A DNA stretch of 14,092 nt from an uncultured Veillonella sp. (GTDB lineage Bacteria > Bacillota > Negativicutes > Veillonellales > Veillonellaceae): the NCBI GenBank assembly GCA_900552445.1, contig URZS01000007.1, positions 1 through 14,092 on the forward strand, read 5' to 3'. The notes under the pieces are model-generated. The model was given only the letters and a program-made list of their open reading frames with translations. It had not been told where the DNA came from and ran no database searches. Positions 2,053 to 13,787 of this stretch are shown here, piece by piece (position 1 is the first letter of the stretch; every line of letters starts with the position of its first letter). The translations under genes were made by a program, and so were the position numbers.

Positions 2053-2541
2053 CTACATTTTTTCTCCACGGCTCATCGCTGTAATACCAGTTTTTGCAAT
2101 TTCAAGAATACCATAGGTTTCCATAATTTGGATGAAACCGCGCAACTTTTCAACACTACCGATGACTTCAATAATCATGGACGTAGGAGAAATATCAAGT
2201 ACATTGCCGCGATATACATCGGCAATTTGTACAATTTGAGAACGTGTTGTAGCGGTCGCTTTTACCTTAATAAGCATCAATTCACGACATACTACATCAT
2301 GATCTTCAAAGACTTTAACCTTTACAACGTCAATAAGCTTGTAAATTTGCTTTTGAACTTGATCTAAGATGCGGTCATCCGCCTCAACGGTGAGGGTAAT
2401 ACGCGCATACCCCGGCTTATTAGTAATGCCAGAGGTCATTTTTGTAACGTTAAAACCACGACGATTAAAGAGTGCCAAAATACGTGTACCAATACCTGGT
2501 GTATTTTTTGCAATTACTAAGACTTGATGTTCTTTAGCCAT
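2053..2541 (-). CDS. ilvN: Acetolactate synthase regulatory (small) subunit
   Basis: Regulatory subunit of acetohydroxyacid synthase. It binds the catalytic IlvB subunit, stimulates it and, in the family, confers valine feedback inhibition. The 162-residue protein has an N-terminal ACT domain (about residues 5-75, with NTPGIGTRILALFNRRGFN) and the usual C-terminal AHAS small-subunit domain (about 85-160). The length is normal for the full-size form. Its ATG overlaps the TAA of ilvB by one base (TAATG), a standard sign of translational coupling and fixed stoichiometry. The stop TAG is embedded in the ribosome binding site of the next gene. The symbol ilvH would be equally acceptable. Confidence 0.96.
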   Translation of the reverse strand: MAKEHQVLVIAKNTPGIGTRILALFNRRGFNVTKMTSGITNKPGYARITLTVEADDRILDQVQKQIYKLIDVVKVKVFEDHDVVCRELMLIKVKATATTRSQIVQIADVYRGNVLDISPTSMIIEVIGSVEKLRGFIQIMETYGILEIAKTGITAMSRGEKM

Positions 2542-4250
2542 TATAGCACCCCTTTCTTACCCATCATGCCGCTTACAGTGCCGCCTGCTGGAATCATTGG
2601 CAATACATTGTCTTCACGCTCAACGCGACAATCTAGGACAATGCTTTCATCAGACGTAATGTAAGATTTAAAATCTTTATTGAAAGTTTCTACATTATCG
2701 AGACGAGCCGCTTTCAAATTGAATGCATCAGCCAATTTCAAGAAGTCTGGACTCATTTCCAAATCTACATAGGAGTAGCGACGATCGTTAAAGATTTGTT
2801 GCCATTGACGAACCATGCCAAGGTAACCATTGTTGATGATTACAATTTTGATTGGCAAGTTGTATTGACGAACCATCATGAGTTCTTCGCAAGTCATTTG
2901 GAATCCACCATCACCTACAACAAGAACTACTTGTTTCTTAGGAGCCCCAACTTGTGCACCAATAGCCGCCGGTAAACCATAACCCATAGTACCTGCACCA
3001 CCAGATGTAACGATGGTATGAGGTTTTTTATGTGTTAAGAATTGGGCTGCCCACATTTGATGTTGACCTACGTCAGAAACGATAATGGCATCATCTTTCA
3101 CAATTTTATTAAGCTCAGCTAATACATATTGTGGATGCAATTCACCATCAGTAGATTCTGGAATAGCAATAGGATACTCCTCTTGCCACTGGCGAATTTG
3201 CTCAAGCCAAGCTTCATGTTTTGCGGGCTCCACGAGTGCGTTAAGTTCTGTTAATACTCGTTTCAAATCGCCTACGATAGGCACATCGATAGTAACGTTC
3301 TTGTCGATTTCAGCTGGGTCGATATCGATGTGAATGATCTTAGCTTTTTTACAGAAGAAATCAGGATGACCTGTAATGCGATCGTGGAAGCGAATACCTG
3401 CCGCAATTACAACATCTGCCTCATCTGTACTATTATTAGCCGCCACAGAACCGTGCATACCTACCATACCAAGCGCCAATTCATGGTCCCCAGGGAAACC
3501 ACCAAGGCCTACTAAAGTATTTGTTACAGGAATATGAGCTGTTTCAGCCAATGCTTTAAGCTCATCTACAGCACCGGATTTCAATACGCCAGCACCAGCT
3601 ATGATAAGAGGACGCTTTGCATTTTTAATGAGTGTAGCAGCCTTCTTAATTTGACCTTGATGACCTTTATACGTTGGATCATAGCCTTCAAGTTGAATCG
3701 GTACTTCATATAATTTATTGTATTCTGTCATGGATATTTTTTCTGTTTGAATATCCTTTGGAATATCGATAAGTACTGGACCTGGACGACCTGTACCTGC
3801 AATAAAGTACGCTTCTTTAATGATGCGAGGCAAATCATGAATATCTTGGACAAGATAGTTATGCTTTGTAATCGGCATTGTAATACCTTGAATATCCGCC
3901 TCTTGGAAGGAGTCCTTACCGATGAAAGGACGACCAACCTGACCAGTAATGGCTACCATTGGTACGGAATCCATGTACGCAGTCATAATGCCTGTTACGA
4001 GATTTGTCGCACCAGGACCAGACGTAGCAAGACATACACCTACACGACCAGATACGCGAGCATATCCGTCTGCTGCATGTGCTGCACCTTGTTCATGACG
4101 AACGAAATAATGTTTAATTTCAGGGAAGCTATAAATTTCATCGTAAATTGGAATTACTGCGCCACCTGGGTAGCCGAACATATCAGTTACGCCAAGGCGA
4201 TGCAATGTTTCAAGGACAATGCGTGCCCCATTGATTGTTTCTGCGCTCAT
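2541..4250 (-). CDS. ilvB: Acetolactate synthase catalytic (large) subunit
   Basis: ThDP-dependent enzyme that condenses pyruvate with pyruvate (to acetolactate, for Val/Leu) or with 2-ketobutyrate (to acetohydroxybutyrate, for Ile). The 569 residues include the N-terminal PYR domain with the activating glutamate E53 (RHEQGAAHAADGYA), a central FAD-binding domain (about 195-345, with GIRFHDRITG at 285-294), and the C-terminal PP domain. That last domain has the ThDP/Mg motif GDGG at 446-449 ending in NN at 473-474. Full length and intact. The ATG at 4250 follows AAGGG with a 5-base gap, and ilvA ends 18 bases upstream. Supplied with 2-ketobutyrate by the adjacent IlvA, it feeds IlvC and IlvD. 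Confidence 0.97.
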   Translation of the reverse strand: MSAETINGARIVLETLHRLGVTDMFGYPGGAVIPIYDEIYSFPEIKHYFVRHEQGAAHAADGYARVSGRVGVCLATSGPGATNLVTGIMTAYMDSVPMVAITGQVGRPFIGKDSFQEADIQGITMPITKHNYLVQDIHDLPRIIKEAYFIAGTGRPGPVLIDIPKDIQTEKISMTEYNKLYEVPIQLEGYDPTYKGHQGQIKKAATLIKNAKRPLIIAGAGVLKSGAVDELKALAETAHIPVTNTLVGLGGFPGDHELALGMVGMHGSVAANNSTDEADVVIAAGIRFHDRITGHPDFFCKKAKIIHIDIDPAEIDKNVTIDVPIVGDLKRVLTELNALVEPAKHEAWLEQIRQWQEEYPIAIPESTDGELHPQYVLAELNKIVKDDAIIVSDVGQHQMWAAQFLTHKKPHTIVTSGGAGTMGYGLPAAIGAQVGAPKKQVVLVVGDGGFQMTCEELMMVRQYNLPIKIVIINNGYLGMVRQWQQIFNDRRYSYVDLEMSPDFLKLADAFNLKAARLDNVETFNKDFKSYITSDESIVLDCRVEREDNVLPMIPAGGTVSGMMGKKGVL

Positions 4251-4268: not shown

Positions 4269-5492
4269 CTATTCAGACAAGGTCTCGCTGGAATTTAAAC
4301 GTTTAATAATGTAACCATTATTTTTGAAAGTATCAATAATCTGTTGGATGTGTTCTTCACCATTTGTCTCTACTGTTACTTGCAATTCCACTTCATGGAA
4401 GCGGTCAAGGTTTTTAAACTGATTGTGATCCAGCTTAATTACGTTTGCATCCGCATCTGCCAACATTTGAGATACAGCTACCAATTGACCTGGTTTATCA
4501 GGCAAGTTAACGGAGAAGGTGAAAATACGACCACGTACGACAAGACCTTTATTAATCATAGAGGAAATAGTCAGTACGTCGATATTACCACCGCTGACGA
4601 TAGCCACAACCTTTTTACCAGTGCAGTTTAATTTTCTAAGACCTGCTAATGGTAAAATACCAGAGTTTTCTGCTACTAATTTATGTTTTTCTACGAGTAG
4701 CAAGAATGCTTCCATCAACTCGTAATCAGAAACAGTAATAATATCATCTACATATTGTTTGATATATTCTAATGTAGTTTCTCCAATTTGGCGTACTGCG
4801 GTACCGTCCGCAATAGTTGCCACTTCATCAAGGGGAACTGGATGGTCAGCCTTTAACGCCGCTAGTGCACTAGCAGCACCTTCTGGTTCTACACCGATAA
4901 TCTTGACGCGCGGATTTTTTAATTTAGCTGCTGCTGCAATACCAGATACGATACCACCGCCCCCAACAGGAACGAGCAAGATCTCCGCATCAGGAAGCTC
5001 TTCAAGAACTTCAAGGGCAATCGTACCTTGTCCTTCGATTACATCTTCATCATCGAAAGGATGAACAAACACATAGCCGTGTTCTTGTTGGAGCTCTATC
5101 GCCTTTTGGTAAGCTTCATCGTAAATCTCGCCGTGTAGTACGACCTCTGCGCCATATTGTTTTGTCGCTTTAACCTTGATGAGAGGTGTATGTTTTGGCA
5201 TTACGATGGTCGCTTTGATACCGAGGCGTTTTGCGGCAAGGGCCACACCTTGTGCGTGGTTGCCAGCAGAGGCAGCGATAACGCCGCGCGCCTTTTCCTC
5301 TTCCGTCAATTTTGCAATTTTATTATAAGCTCCACGGACCTTAAAGGAGCCTGTTATTTGCAAGTTTTCTGGCTTGATATATACATCATTGCCACACTCG
5401 TCAGAAAACACATCACTATGAAGCAATTTTGTTTTTACCGTGATTGTGCTTAATCGCTCACGAGCCTCCATAAAATCATATAATTTATGCAT
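4269..5492 (-). CDS. ilvA: Threonine ammonia-lyase (dehydratase) with C-terminal ACT domain
   Basis: PLP enzyme that deaminates threonine to 2-ketobutyrate, the entry step to isoleucine. Seen from the upstream in-frame ATG at 5501, the PLP lysine is in GSFKVRGA (K54), the phosphate-binding glycine loop VGGGGIVSG is near 180, and a C-terminal ACT domain spans about 325-405 (SVNLPDKPGQL). The total of about 407 residues fits the single-ACT form rather than the ~510-residue E. coli IlvA. I place the start at the ATG at 5492 because the AGGAG box lies 9 bases upstream of it, whereas the ATG at 5501 directly abuts that box. It lies between ilvD and ilvB, which supports a biosynthetic rather than catabolic (TdcB-like) role. 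The ACT domain suggests allosteric control by an amino acid, probably Ile or Val. Confidence 0.93.
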   Translation of the reverse strand: MHKLYDFMEARERLSTITVKTKLLHSDVFSDECGNDVYIKPENLQITGSFKVRGAYNKIAKLTEEEKARGVIAASAGNHAQGVALAAKRLGIKATIVMPKHTPLIKVKATKQYGAEVVLHGEIYDEAYQKAIELQQEHGYVFVHPFDDEDVIEGQGTIALEVLEELPDAEILLVPVGGGGIVSGIAAAAKLKNPRVKIIGVEPEGAASALAALKADHPVPLDEVATIADGTAVRQIGETTLEYIKQYVDDIITVSDYELMEAFLLLVEKHKLVAENSGILPLAGLRKLNCTGKKVVAIVSGGNIDVLTISSMINKGLVVRGRIFTFSVNLPDKPGQLVAVSQMLADADANVIKLDHNQFKNLDRFHEVELQVTVETNGEEHIQQIIDTFKNNGYIIKRLNSSETLSE

Positions 5493-5533
5493 CTGCACCA
5501 TCTCCTCTAGTTAGTATTAATGAAAGTCTACTA

Positions 5534-7204
5534 TTAGTCTTCAAATACTTCGATAGCACCTTGTGCTGCAGAGGATACGTGAAGAGCGTATTTTTTAAGG
5601 TAACCAGTTACATTGGATTTGAATGGTTTCAATGCCGCTTTACGACGAGCGATTTCCTCATCGGATACAGCCAATTCCAATTTACCGTTCGGAATATCGA
5701 TGTTGATGATGTCACCATCTTCAACAACGGCGATTGTGCCACCTGCGGCTGCTTCTGGAGATACGTGACCAATGGATGCACCACGAGTAGCACCAGAGAA
5801 ACGACCGTCAGTCAACAAGGCTACGTCTTTATCTAAACCCATACCTGCGATCATAGATGTTGGTGTCAACATTTCACGCATGCCAGGACCACCTTTAGGG
5901 CCTTCGTAGCGGATAACTACCACGTCGCCTTTTATGATTTTACCGCCTGTAATAGCTTCAACTGCTTCTTCTTCGCTGTTGAATACTTTAGCTGGACCAG
6001 AGTGAACGAGCATATCTGCATCTACAGCACCAGCTTTTACAACGGAACCATCTTCCGCAAGGTTCCCTTTAAGTACAGCAATACCACCAGTTTCGTGAAC
6101 TGGATTATCCCAAGGATGAATTACATCCTCATCAGCTACATACGCAGCCTCAGCAATTTCACCTTGTGTTTTAAGAGCTACTGTTTGACATTCTGTATGA
6201 AGACGACCATTTTCTGCTAATCGTTTTAATACCGCAGATACGCCACCTGCTGCGTACAAGTCTTCGATGAAGTAGATCCCAGATGGGGACAATTTAGATA
6301 ATTGTGGTGTAATTTGAGCAATGCGATCGAAATCGTCTAAGGACAAAGGCACACCTGCTTCATGAGCGATGGCTGGCAAGTGAAGCGCCGTATTAGAAGA
6401 ACCACCTAACGCCATATCAAGAGCTACCGCATTTTCAAAAGCTTCGCGAGTCATAACATCTTTTGGACGAAGATTCGCTTTTAATACTTCTACTGCTTGC
6501 ATACCTGCTAATTTAGCAAGACGTAAACGTTCAGAGTATACAGCAGGAATTGTACCGTTACCAGGAAGGCCCATACCAAGAGCCTCTGTTAAGCAGTTCA
6601 TAGTGTTTGCTGTGTACATACCAGAGCAAGAGCCACATGTAGGACATGCATTATTTTCAATGCTTGCCAACTCTGCGTCGCCCATTTCGCCAGTTTGATG
6701 TTTACCTACTGCTTCGAATACGTCGGACAAACCAATTTTTTTGCCTTTATGAACACCAGCGAGCATGGCACCGCCAGACACGAATACAGATGGAATGTTA
6801 AGGCGAGCCGCCGCAATTAACATACCTGGTACTACTTTGTCGCAGTTTGGAATGAATACCATCGCATCGAATGGTGTTGCCATTGCCGTTGCCTCAATGG
6901 AGTCAGCAATAATATTGCGTGTAACCAAGGAGTATTTCATGCCGATGTGGTTCATTGCGAGACCATCGCAAATGCCGATTGTATTGAACTCGATTGGCAC
7001 ACCACCTGCGTTGCGGATGCCGTCTTTTACGGCTTGTACAATATTTTTCAGGCCTACGTGACCAGGGATAATTTCATTGAAAGAGTTCGCAATACCAATG
7101 ACTGGTCTGCCCATTTCTTCGTCAACGAAACCCAGAGCTTTTAGCAAAGATCTGTGTGGTGCACGTGCTACGCCTGTTTTTAAATTGTCACTTCTACAAC
7201 TCAT
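5534..7204 (-). CDS. ilvD: Dihydroxy-acid dehydratase
   Basis: Iron-sulphur enzyme that dehydrates 2,3-dihydroxyisovalerate and 2,3-dihydroxy-3-methylvalerate to the keto acids of valine and isoleucine. The 556-residue protein has the family cysteines in GICDG (C79), PNCDK (C121) and CPTCGSC (187-193), plus the C-terminal [20 protein letters not shown] segment. The [10 protein letters not shown] stretch has glycine where plant-type [2Fe-2S] enzymes have cysteine, so the cluster may be of the E. coli kind; this is inference. I place the start at 7204 because AGGAG lies 6 bases upstream and [11 protein letters not shown] is a normal N-terminus; an in-frame ATG at 7249 would begin inside the leader. 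It is the first structural gene of the operon and is preceded by an attenuator terminator 53 bases upstream. The ilvA gene follows after a gap of about 40 bases. Confidence 0.97.
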
Positions 7205-7256: not shown

Positions 7257-7285
7257 AAAAAAAGACGATTCCTATGAATCGTCTT
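7257..7285 (-). terminator. Attenuator terminator upstream of ilvD
   Basis: On the minus strand a perfect 10-pair stem (5' arm 7276-7285 AAGACGATTC, loop ATAG, 3' arm 7262-7271) runs into seven consecutive T residues. It lies after the leader ORF and 53 bases before the ilvD ATG. A full intrinsic terminator between a promoter and its first structural gene is the hallmark of transcription attenuation. The 5' arm can alternatively pair with 7426-7437. Confidence 0.88.
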
Positions 7286-7437
7286 AAAAGTTTACAAATG
7301 ATATTCCTTTTGTTTACAGAATTCCTATATACATAAATAGACCTATGTACCCCTTGGAAAATATACACATAAGAAACAAACTATAAAGCCAAAATCTTAT
7401 TGATTGTATATTAACCCATTCGCGGAACTTCTAAGAC
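7281..7437 (-). promoter_or_regulatory. Candidate antiterminator pairing of the ilv leader
   Basis: In the minus-strand RNA, 7426-7437 (GUCUUAGAAGUU, leader codons 31-35) is complementary to 7281-7292 (AACUUUUAAGAC) over 12 bases with one G·U pair. Two more pairs can be added at one end (U·G and U-A). The pairing uses up most of the 5' arm of the terminator, so the two structures exclude each other. I found it by eye. No folding energy was computed, and no strong protector hairpin for 7426-7437 was found. Confidence 0.65.
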
Positions 7438-7528
7438 AAAAACGTGTTAAGTTGTTGTTCATAATTCGAATGTCATTAATAATCACGACTAGCGCAATAA
7501 TCAATAAGCTAATGACTAAACCTAACAT
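7397..7528 (-). CDS. ilvL: ilv operon leader peptide (attenuation sensor)
   Basis: A 43-codon ORF starting ATG at 7528 and ending TAA at 7397-7399, with a perfect AGGAGG at 7533-7538, 4 bases before the ATG. The peptide begins MLGLVISLLIIALVVII. Fifteen of residues 1-22 and 19 of all 43 are Ile, Leu or Val, using mixed codons (TTA, TTG, CTA, ATT, GTC, GTG). The composition and the run VISLLIIALVVII closely recall E. coli IlvL, which senses charged tRNAs for the three branched-chain amino acids. It lies between the operon promoter and a terminator, with an antiterminator segment inside its 3' half. The role is inferred: ribosome stalling on these codons when Ile, Leu or Val is scarce would favour read-through into ilvD. 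Alternatively it could be a small single-span membrane protein, since residues 2-17 are hydrophobic. The tail from residue 24 on is polar and looks non-functional as protein. The symbol is by analogy. Confidence 0.82.
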   Translation of the reverse strand: MLGLVISLLIIALVVIINDIRIMNNNLTRFCLRSSANGLIYNQ

Positions 7529-7568
7529 GTTTCCTCCTAAAATAATCTGTAATATTAATCACGGAATA

Positions 7569-7597
7569 ATAATAACACGTTACATTATCCTGTGCAA
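7569..7597 (-). promoter_or_regulatory. Promoter of the ilv operon
   Basis: On the minus strand -35 TTGCAC (7592-7597) and -10 TATTAT (7569-7574) have a 17-base spacer, and TGT just upstream of the -10 gives an extended -10 element. A start near 7562 is predicted, giving a leader of about 360 bases before ilvD. An inverted repeat, ATTATC and GATAAT, flanks the -35 box (about 7584-7603) and could be an operator. Confidence 0.75.
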
Positions 7598-7739: not shown

Positions 7740-9143
7740 TTATAGGATACCAAAGATCCACATACCAAGGGCGCCGCCCCAGAAGTGAATGAGGAAGCTC
7801 ACCACGGAAATGGCAAGACCTACGCGCCACCACGTACCTTGCGGTACATAACCAGCGCCAAAGAAGATCGGCGTTACACCAGAGCTATAGTGAGTTAATG
7901 TACAACCAGGGCTGTTCATCAAACCAAAGAGCAAGATGGTAAACGGAATTGGTGCACCCATCGCCACAAGAATGGCTGCAAAGGCGGAGAACAATGCGGT
8001 AATACGCGCCGTACCACTAGCGAAGAAGTATTGGGAGTATACAAAGGTTGCAGAGATAATAAAAGATGCCCAGAACCAGTCGATGCCTGCAAGATGTTGG
8101 CTAACAAAATCTGCAAAGACGGCTACTACACCGAGTTTACCGAGTAAGCCTGCCATGCCAACCAGAGTGCCCATCCAAATGAGAATATCCCAACCAGTAC
8201 GCTCACCTAGGATATCATCCCACGTAAGGGAACCCGTTACGACACATGCAAGAACACCCATCATAGCAACTACCGTTGGGTGAAGCTTCGTCCAAATCGC
8301 AGTAGCCCAAAGCAAGATACAAAGCACAAAGATAATAGCTACAGAAATTTCTGCTTTTGTAATAGGACCAAGAGCATCTAACTCTTTTTGGGCCATCGCC
8401 GCCGCTTGTGGTGTTTCTTTAATTTCTGGTGGATAGATTTTATAGATGAACCAAGGCATCAAAATCATACAAATCACACCAGGAATCACGCCCGCTTGGA
8501 ACCATTCCCACCAAGAAATATCGTAACCAAATAATTTTGCCCCTAACGATGTAATGAGCAAGTTACCACTACATGCAGTTAAGAAGATGGTTACAGTAAT
8601 GGTGTTAATGGTATGAGCTGTCGTCATCAAGTACGCCCCGATGCGACGAGCTGTCTTGCCATATGGTTCAGAATCAAAGGCTAACGAAATATTTTGCACG
8701 ATTGGAAATACGATACCGCCCCCACGCGCTGTATTAGATGGCGTCGCTGGAGAGATAATCAAATCAGTACAAGCTAATGCATAGGCTAGTTTCAAAGAAC
8801 TTGTACCAAAAGAACGAATCAAAGTATAGGCAATGCGCTTACCAAGACCAGAATTAATAATACCTCTAGAAAAGAATACGGCCGCTACGATAAGCCACAC
8901 ATTCGCCTCTGCATAACCACCTAGAGCTTGCACCATAGTAATAGACTTTGTCGTTACCGCCGCAACGATACCAAAGAGTGCCATAATGCCAGTCGGCCAA
9001 GGGCGTAAAATAAAGCCCACAATGGTAGCCGTAAAGATAGCTAATAAATGCCACCCTTCAGGCTTAATTGCCTCCGTGTGAGGCAAGAACCAAATCACTA
9101 AGCCCACCAAAACGGTAAGGGCCGCACGCGTAAAAGTATTCAT
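7740..9143 (-). CDS. DASS-family (SLC13-like) anion:Na+ symporter
   Basis: Inner-membrane carrier, 467 residues, almost wholly hydrophobic with a dozen or so membrane segments. It carries both family signature repeats: SNT at 136-138 (within PATPSNTARGGG) and SGT at 376-378 (within FFASGTARITA), the substrate and sodium binding hairpin tips of the DASS fold. THYSSGVTPIFFGAGY at 417-432 is also typical of the CitT/TtdT branch. The likely substrate is a di- or tricarboxylate such as malate, succinate, 2-oxoglutarate, citrate or tartrate; the sequence alone does not decide. The ATG at 9143 has GGGAGG 4 bases upstream. It appears monocistronic, with its own terminator. Its upstream region contains a long hexanucleotide tandem repeat that may tune expression. 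Confidence 0.9.
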   Translation of the reverse strand: MNTFTRAALTVLVGLVIWFLPHTEAIKPEGWHLLAIFTATIVGFILRPWPTGIMALFGIVAAVTTKSITMVQALGGYAEANVWLIVAAVFFSRGIINSGLGKRIAYTLIRSFGTSSLKLAYALACTDLIISPATPSNTARGGGIVFPIVQNISLAFDSEPYGKTARRIGAYLMTTAHTINTITVTIFLTACSGNLLITSLGAKLFGYDISWWEWFQAGVIPGVICMILMPWFIYKIYPPEIKETPQAAAMAQKELDALGPITKAEISVAIIFVLCILLWATAIWTKLHPTVVAMMGVLACVVTGSLTWDDILGERTGWDILIWMGTLVGMAGLLGKLGVVAVFADFVSQHLAGIDWFWASFIISATFVYSQYFFASGTARITALFSAFAAILVAMGAPIPFTILLFGLMNSPGCTLTHYSSGVTPIFFGAGYVPQGTWWRVGLAISVVSFLIHFWGGALGMWIFGIL

Positions 9144-13720: not shown

Positions 13721-13787
13721 GAAGCCGATGCGATATAGATCGGAAGAGCACACGTCTGAACTCCAGTCACGAGGCCGATGCGATATA
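13721..13787. repeat. Duplicated 17-base flank around the adapter
   Basis: GARGCCGATGCGATATA occurs at 13721-13737 and again at 13771-13787, exactly 50 bases apart, differing only at the third base (A versus G). The left copy gives the expected Phe codon of S4 (RIGFGN); the right copy gives Leu. The right copy is therefore the altered one and the duplication is an assembly product. Confidence 0.9.
13737..13770 (+). other. Illumina TruSeq adapter sequence (assembly contaminant)
   Basis: Thirty-four consecutive bases match the TruSeq read-1 adapter, beginning AGATCGGAAGAGCACACGTC and ending at CTCCAGTCAC, where the index would start. Translations of this stretch ([20 protein letters not shown]) are recurring contaminant peptides in draft assemblies. 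It is not part of the organism's DNA. Confidence 0.98.

Follow-up and report, generated by a model that had tools for sequence, protein, structure and literature searches.

Organization of the ilv locus

The window, i.e., the whole stretch of 14,092 nucleotides analyzed, carries an ilv operon on its minus strand in the order ilvD, ilvA-like, ilvB, ilvN, ABC ATPase and ilvC: (i) ilvD as first operon gene (5534–7204), with its most likely start at 7204 (AAGGAG followed by ATG), (ii) an ilvA-like threonine dehydratase gene with PALP and ACT domains (4269–5501), (iii) genes for the ilvB-like large subunit (2541–4250) and the ilvN-like small subunit (2053–2541) of acetolactate synthase, (iv) an ABC transporter ATPase gene (1256–2041) located between ilvN and ilvC, and (v) an ORF for an ilvC-like ketol-acid reductoisomerase (106–1188), the true start of which is probably internal. 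By sequence resemblance, we take genes (iii) and (v) to be ilvB, ilvN and ilvC. The ABC ATPase was unmatched, at E values up to 1e-15, in the 10-kb loci of four relatives (L173–L176). On the other side of ilvD, a gene of the sodium:sulfate symporter family (7740–9143, Pfam) is followed by a terminator-like site (7736–7707), and the leader region extends between this site and ilvD.

The leader of the window is 99 % identical to that of the nearest genome compared, and IlvD of V. parvula SKV38 is 97 % identical; by these identities, the window derives from a Veillonella that is a near relative of V. parvula. Within a gene presumed to be rpsD-like, an adapter-like stretch (13737–13769) lies between repeated flanks and breaks the reading frame; it is presumably identical to the Illumina TruSeq adapter, and the insertion is an assembly artefact.

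Anatomy of the leader region

A sequence-only reading of this DNA had described an extended -10 promoter, a Shine-Dalgarno (SD)-led ORF of 43 codons with 15 Ile, Leu or Val among its first 22 residues and a terminator of 10 base pairs, and each of these elements was found again in its place on the minus strand. The promoter consists of a -35 element, TTGCAC (7592–7597), and an extended -10 element, TGTTATTAT (7569–7577), 17 nt apart. Most Veillonella leaders inspected likewise have a TTGC-type -35 element and a spacer of 17 nt, the -10 element being TGnTATTAT-like in parvula-type leaders, and TTTACA-17-TGnTATAAT is found in many Leptotrichia-type leaders; a good match is absent at some loci, e.g., L108 (all by consensus scan without a null model). 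Five promoter-like sites in the 1-kb region compare with 3.5 expected and are by themselves no evidence.

The leader ORF (MLGLVISLLIIALVVIINDIRIMNNNLTRFCLRSSANGLIYNQ; 7397–7528, start 7528, end 7397) is preceded by the SD sequence TAGGAGGA (7532–7539), and its residues 1–22 comprise 7 Ile, 5 Leu and 3 Val. No Pfam match was obtained for the ORF. The intrinsic terminator (7257–7285) is formed by 10 perfect pairs (7276–7285/7262–7271) around the loop ATAG, with seven T residues at 7257–7263; its stem begins 111 nt after the leader stop codon, and a further 57 nt separate the stem from the probable start of ilvD (7204). Counting this terminator, four terminator-like sites are present in the 1-kb region versus 0.5 expected.

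Three further pairings are predicted within the leader transcript. The antiterminator joins an arm within codons 30–35 of the leader ORF (TTGTCTTAGAAGTT; 7426–7439) to a 3' strand (AACTTTTAAGACGA; 7279–7292) that overlaps the 5' arm of the terminator. This alternative helix had been noticed before and is real, but measures 14 pairs including G-U (7426–7439/7279–7292) rather than the 12 bases originally given. In the pairing designated P1, the SD sequence together with the start codon and codons 1–3 (7519–7542) opposes codons 25–33 along with most of the antiterminator arm (7429–7453). In P2, the Ile/Leu codons 7–10 (CTTATTGATT; 7499–7508) oppose a strand that includes the leader stop codon (AATCAATAAG; 7396–7405). 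Folding of the 308-nt leader gave z = -3.87, none of 100 shuffles being as good.

In agreement with the sequence-only reading, no T-box (Rfam RF00230) was matched in the window, and the same holds for 20 leader loci. At gathering score, the Rfam search of the window returned neither tRNA, T-box or other known RNA families nor any of the enterobacterial amino-acid leader families; at E values up to 1 there were just three window matches, all far under their gathering scores. No Rfam family reached its gathering score in the leader loci searched, either.

Occurrence of the leader ORF in relatives

Upstream regions of ilvD were gathered from 28 genomes of the Veillonella family, from 15 genomes of other families of the same order (18 loci, 17 of them usable because L126 lacks upstream sequence), from all 54 of 98 searched Fusobacteriota genomes with an IlvD match at E values up to 1e-200, and from a further set of 80 named loci, among the matches listed. 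A leader was called if an SD sequence preceded an ORF of 14–75 codons with at least 50 % Ile, Leu and Val (ILV) over a 20-residue stretch; for the last nine Fusobacteriota genomes a similar, not identical, rule was applied. The rule was met by 80 of 171 real ilvD upstream regions as compared to 105 of 3320 shuffled ones. From these 80 matches (window included), seven judged false by eye (L047, L048, L054, L060, L079, L093 and L170) were dropped, and L015 was removed as a duplicate, being a second match in the genome of L014. The remaining 72 loci encode 50 distinct peptides, and since some genomes are present twice (e.g., L013/L131 and L014/L098), counts were made on the latter.

An ILV-rich leader ORF with SD sequence is present upstream of ilvD in 27 of the 28 Veillonella-family genomes, and for the 28th (G020) just 260 nt upstream of ilvD were available. 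Upstream sequence was likewise too short to show a leader at L019 and L104 (260 nt) and at L167 and L034 (152 nt). Among the 54 ilvD-bearing Fusobacteriota genomes, 32 have an ILV-rich leader before ilvD and 22 are without one of the Veillonella type. None of the 17 same-order loci from other families passed the rule. The conservation of the small ORF, on which the sequence-only reading had staked its interpretation, was borne out, the leader bearers beyond the family being Fusobacteriota.

Across the 50 distinct leaders, which are 29–56 residues long, ILV make up 70.9 % of residues 2–23, and Phe, Trp, Met, Ala, Gly, Cys, Thr and Tyr together 8.4 %. The predicted leader ORFs begin at an ATG served by an SD sequence and contain codon runs for the end-product amino acids of the operon. 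One family genome has a second IlvD copy (L109, G024:C3; 44 % identical), ahead of which the rule detects no ILV leader.

A T-box precedes ilvD in two of 14 scanned loci of same-order, other-family genomes (L114:996–1231 and L123:380–619), and T-boxes occur elsewhere in the genome in all 28 Veillonella-family genomes. T-box control is therefore available to the family, and its ilvD has a different regulator.

Conservation of terminator and antiterminator

The terminator rule finds a site in all 72 loci, yet also in 1454 of 1500 shuffles; the bare count was rejected as evidence because the rule is too lax, and strength alone is informative. Only 6 of 1500 shuffles equalled the strength observed between leader stop codon and ilvD; for 44 of the 50 leaders, not one of 30 shuffles did so. 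An intrinsic terminator thus lies between the leader and the first structural gene.

For 49 of the 50 distinct leaders, no more than 11 of 200 shuffles gave an antiterminator pairing as good (no more than 2 of 200 for 34 of the 50), and for the nearest genome (L001) none of 200 did. The 5' strand of the antiterminator is typically situated at codons 23–38, i.e., late in the ORF, and pairs with the 5' arm of the terminator; on paper, this pairing excludes the terminator by taking the arm. The exception is Fusobacterium gastrosuis (L021), which has no usual antiterminator (122 of 200 shuffles as good) despite possessing leader and terminator, and which may use another fold. The L021 leader has 85 % ILV over one 20-residue stretch.

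Since the arm region of L011 and of the L018 group was misplaced in the MAFFT alignment, no pairs were counted on it; a per-row table, anchored counts and tests of cognate versus non-cognate strands were used in its place. At offset +3 of the 38 alignable arms, the pair is U-A in 14, C-G in 22 and U-G in one. At some Fusobacteriota loci, e.g., L166, the two antiterminator strands look unlike those of Veillonella in sequence and still pair. For the cognate test, 20 lineages were hand-picked from the 50 leaders, the permutation floor being p = 0.00001. Cognate antiterminator strands pair at -16.0 kcal/mol versus -10.2 kcal/mol for non-cognate ones (p = 0.00001, the test floor); the cognate excess per lineage is -5.48, as compared to -0.28 for shuffled leaders and +0.73 for a negative-control segment. 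Shuffling of the 5' parts cut the cognate excess to 5–17 % of that observed for antiterminator, P1 and P2, and the negative-control segment showed none. In relatives, the alternative pairing is conserved with compensating change, a result in favour of the sequence-only reading.

The arm RNA GTCTTAGAAGTTC is read in two frames, as CLRSS in the window and as VLEVP in L011, L012 and L013. It is the RNA rather than the peptide that is conserved in the arm, the former being retained even across an indel that displaces the frame.

Candidate protector pairings

The sequence-only reading had cautioned that a ribosome reaching the stop codon would no longer cover the antiterminator arm, so that a protector pairing or kinetic control would be needed. 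This caveat was borne out, since most leaders expose the arm once the ribosome has reached the stop codon; the distance from the first 14 nt of the arm to the stop codon has a median of 50 nt (range -3 to 75). P1 and P2 are candidate protectors that the sequence-only reading had missed. Since the arm is common to P1 and the antiterminator, and P2 would cross the latter, the three would compete.

P1 outperformed dinucleotide shuffles (at most 10 of 200 as good) in 19 of 50 leaders, namely in 15 of 19 from the Veillonella family and in 4 of 31 others (L141, L158, L166 and L169; L159 at 17 of 200); L006, L010, L013 and L108 missed this level. Against permutations of synonymous codons, at most 10 of 200 was reached in just 2 of 50 leaders, which is not significant. 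The cognate preference of P1 over the 20 lineages (p = 0.00001, the test floor) is carried by nine lineages and is not seen in the other 11 (p = 0.45; the split was chosen after seeing P1). P2 surpassed shuffles in 27 of 49 leaders, has a cognate preference over the 20 lineages at the test floor (p = 0.00001), and leaves a residual of -6.85 versus -1.11 with shuffled codons. An A-U pair of P2 in the window is replaced by G-C through a double change in L013. In L012 and L013, an indel shortens the leader to 38 and 36 codons, respectively; the 3' strand of P2 then lies past the stop codon and still pairs. In Leptotrichia-type loci, P2 takes the form of a long hairpin between the ILV strand and the remainder of the ORF.

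A local hairpin directly upstream of the arm was rejected as a general protector, its z being near zero in most leaders; values of -1.8 to -3.6 are confined to the group of L022, L024, L026, L106 and L111.

Folding and ribosome footprint models

When the whole leader is folded at equilibrium, the terminator prevails in nearly every state. In snapshots taken before the terminator forms, the window-like leaders L001, L005 and L009 show no switch (predicted probability of the antiterminator 0.83–0.97 in all states), and this probability falls in L006 (0.59) and L010 (0.72) with a ribosome at the stop codon only, not in free RNA. Equilibrium folding as proof of a switch thus failed for the group of the window. 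Because of this lack of an equilibrium switch, control in this group, if the attenuator interpretation is right, would be kinetic.

Before the 5' arm of the terminator exists, opening of the antiterminator arm has a median cost of 8.4 kcal/mol in free RNA and 8.0 kcal/mol with a ribosome at the stop codon, as compared to 4.3, 3.8 and 2.5 kcal/mol with a ribosome at codon 14, 18 or 22 and a second one on the SD sequence. The corresponding costs in L001 are 8.8 and 8.7 versus 5.2, 3.8 and 1.4 kcal/mol, and the free-minus-stalled difference exceeds 1 kcal/mol in 44 of the 50 leaders. These favourable energies presuppose the queued second ribosome on the SD sequence: a single ribosome at codon 10 yields a median of 6.8 kcal/mol (L001, 8.8), and a ribosome at the stop codon plus an initiating one 5.4 kcal/mol (L001, 5.2, equal to the stall at codon 14), which blurs the contrast. 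In direction, the modelled footprints agree with the mechanism proposed below.

Proposed mechanism and alternatives

Taken at a probability of about 0.88, the region represents a ribosome-mediated leader-peptide transcription attenuator of the ilv operon, as the sequence-only reading had proposed; the conserved small ORF and the conserved, compensating alternative pairing support this interpretation. Its anatomy, its conservation, the co-variation within particular lineages and, on paper, the mutual exclusivity are shown; the following course is inferred as regards translation and stalling of the ribosome, the sequence in which the RNA folds and the effect of Ile, Leu and Val. Transcription would start probably about 34 nt before the leader ATG, and a ribosome would translate the leader ORF while RNA polymerase continues. 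With charged Ile-, Leu- and Val-tRNAs plentiful, the ribosome would clear the ORF and P1/P2 would close behind it, holding the antiterminator arm, so that the terminator forms and transcription ends before ilvD. In case any of the three amino acids is short, the ribosome would stall within codons 2–22 and block P1/P2, whereupon the arm (codons 30–35) could capture the emerging 5' arm of the terminator and the operon would be transcribed.

Least certain within this model is the protector step, which, taken alone, has only somewhat better than even prospects. P1 and P2 could answer the caveat on the uncovered arm, and both co-vary; against this, folding models provide no proof and no equilibrium switch in the group of the window, and the null of synonymous codons fails for P1. 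In a variant of the model, P1 and P2 have no role, attenuation being governed purely kinetically by the positions of ribosome and polymerase. Such a variant would account for snapshot folding without a switch in the window's group, for the missing support of P1 by synonymous codons and for its absence from 11 of 20 lineages. Against it stands the cognate-specific pairing of P2, and of P1 over all lineages pooled, and without a protector the arm would be free once the ribosome has moved on to the stop codon, by a median of 50 nt. We regard the variant as rather unlikely, although with an appreciable share. A protector that sequesters the SD sequence constitutes a concrete prediction amenable to mutation.

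Far less probable is a riboswitch. The ilvD (WRC-18-2) motif, described solely from Veillonella upstream of ilvD as a weak riboswitch candidate, has 73 Veillonella representatives, some of them with a terminator (PMC8632094); the section describing it mentions no reading frame. By location, this motif is very probably the same RNA as the Veillonella leader. Its authors themselves point to unusually long stems and little covariation (PMC8632094). In Veillonella, the longest predicted stem is the hairpin that involves SD sequence and start codon of the leader ORF, pairing persists between lineages though sequence does not, ILV coding persists as well, and there is no Rfam match at gathering score in the window or the leader loci searched. 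The evidence on the motif thus favours a ribosome-mediated attenuator over a riboswitch, which has at best a slim chance; an orphan candidate thereby gains a probable mechanism, and no ligand hunt would be needed.

Phe, Ala and Gly are common in membrane helices. The least probable view, i.e., a functional small membrane protein with incidental terminator and complementarity, would suit the 43 codons, the strong SD sequence and the first 22 residues, which in our judgement are hydrophobic enough for a membrane helix, but it is hardly reconcilable with the low contents of Phe (1.4 %), Ala (1.5 %) and Gly (2.4 %) in the leaders, with a C-terminal half that switches frame over unchanged RNA and with the strong terminators downstream, and the ORF was rejected as a protein gene for want of a Pfam family.

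Relation to known attenuators

The ilvL leader of the ilvGMEDA operon in E. coli encodes an Ile/Leu/Val-rich peptide, exerts multivalent control and ends in a terminator before the operon. The ILV-rich leader and the position of the terminator are shared with the Veillonella leader, a likeness by description; unlike in ilvL, the leader ORF here contains the antiterminator arm, which in Veillonella has the SD sequence of the leader itself as a possible partner.

Attenuation upstream of ilvD outside the enteric bacteria is less new than the heading of the sequence-only reading implies, as it is already on record for Listeria (PMC5864092) and Staphylococcus (PMC5794164), and the mechanism is of a known kind. 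Rli60 of Listeria monocytogenes is an experimentally supported branched-chain amino acid (BCAA) leader attenuator, mutation of its ATG or ribosome-binding site lowering ilvD transcription ("super-attenuator"; PMC5864092). It resembles the present leader in the downstream gene, the BCAA-rich peptide and the overlap of terminator and antiterminator, and differs by a leader of 13 amino acids (29–56 here) and by being under CodY, the likeness again being one of description (PMC5864092). In the attenuator of Staphylococcus aureus, supported by suppressor mutants, ilvD is likewise preceded by an Ile/Leu-rich leader ORF, the stop codon of which is followed after 52 nt by a terminator (PMC5794164). 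Its proposed antiterminator pairs with the poly-U tail and leaves the terminator stem intact (PMC5794164), whereas that of Veillonella takes the 5' arm of the terminator.

Two other orphan ilv motifs, ilvB-OMG and Leptospira ilvB, were reinterpreted as attenuators with BCAA-rich upstream ORFs in a later report from the same laboratory as the ilvD motif (PMC10272879); these concern genes and organisms different from the Veillonella ilvD leader, and the words ilvD, Veillonella and Fusobacter- are absent from the main text. Leaders for His are described from some Firmicutes (PMC2965389 and PMC9413887). In the open-access literature, among the matches listed, no paper besides PMC8632094 deals with an ilv leader of Veillonella or Fusobacteriota. 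What appears to be new is therefore the occurrence in Veillonella and Fusobacteriota, to which ilv leader-peptide control is added, the likely reassignment of the motif, a history that spans two phyla, and a candidate protector in which the ribosome-binding site of the leader itself takes part.

History of the operon

In a midpoint-rooted IlvD tree of 43 rows, the seven Veillonellaceae rows form one clade (support 100/97), the sister of which comprises Leptotrichia, Sebaldella and F. gastrosuis (joint support 100/97). Both clades are nested in a larger, otherwise fusobacterial clade (100/100), and the same-order relatives (families f2 and f3) fall among Clostridia and a few others. The order ilvD-ilvA-ilvB-ilvN is shared by the window with a Leptotrichia locus (L173), with an extra ORF between ilvD and ilvA, and with a Sebaldella-like one (L174), with an additional ilvN-like match; a further Fusobacteriota locus (L176) has ilvD-ilvB-ilvN-ilvC without ilvA.

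The most likely source of the Veillonella operon, leader included, is a Fusobacteriota-like donor, the direction of transfer being deduced rather than read from the tree because of its midpoint rooting. One gene family would thus be equipped with either a T-box or a leader peptide, both readers of charged tRNA, which were apparently exchanged laterally. As a tentative joint scenario, to which we give somewhat less than an even chance, the attenuator would have crossed phyla together with the ilv operon from Fusobacteriota to Veillonella, taking the place of an ilvD under T-box control, and its logic would have outlasted a complete turnover of the sequence; within one branch, the arm of the antiterminator would have become the anti-SD sequence of its own leader, a single segment choosing between ending ribosome loading and rescuing the operon from termination. 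If the arm indeed acts as anti-SD, about one ribosome would read each transcript.

A second leader type in Fusobacteriota

When a relaxed rule was applied to 16 leaderless loci, L172 was the sole plausible case and led to a second, unrelated leader of compact form, in which five or six Ile codons follow one another, e.g., MNKFKNLFTIIIIICFWVWI. It is found upstream of ilvD in seven Fusobacteriota genomes (L172 and L177–L182), together with a terminator-like hairpin and a T run.
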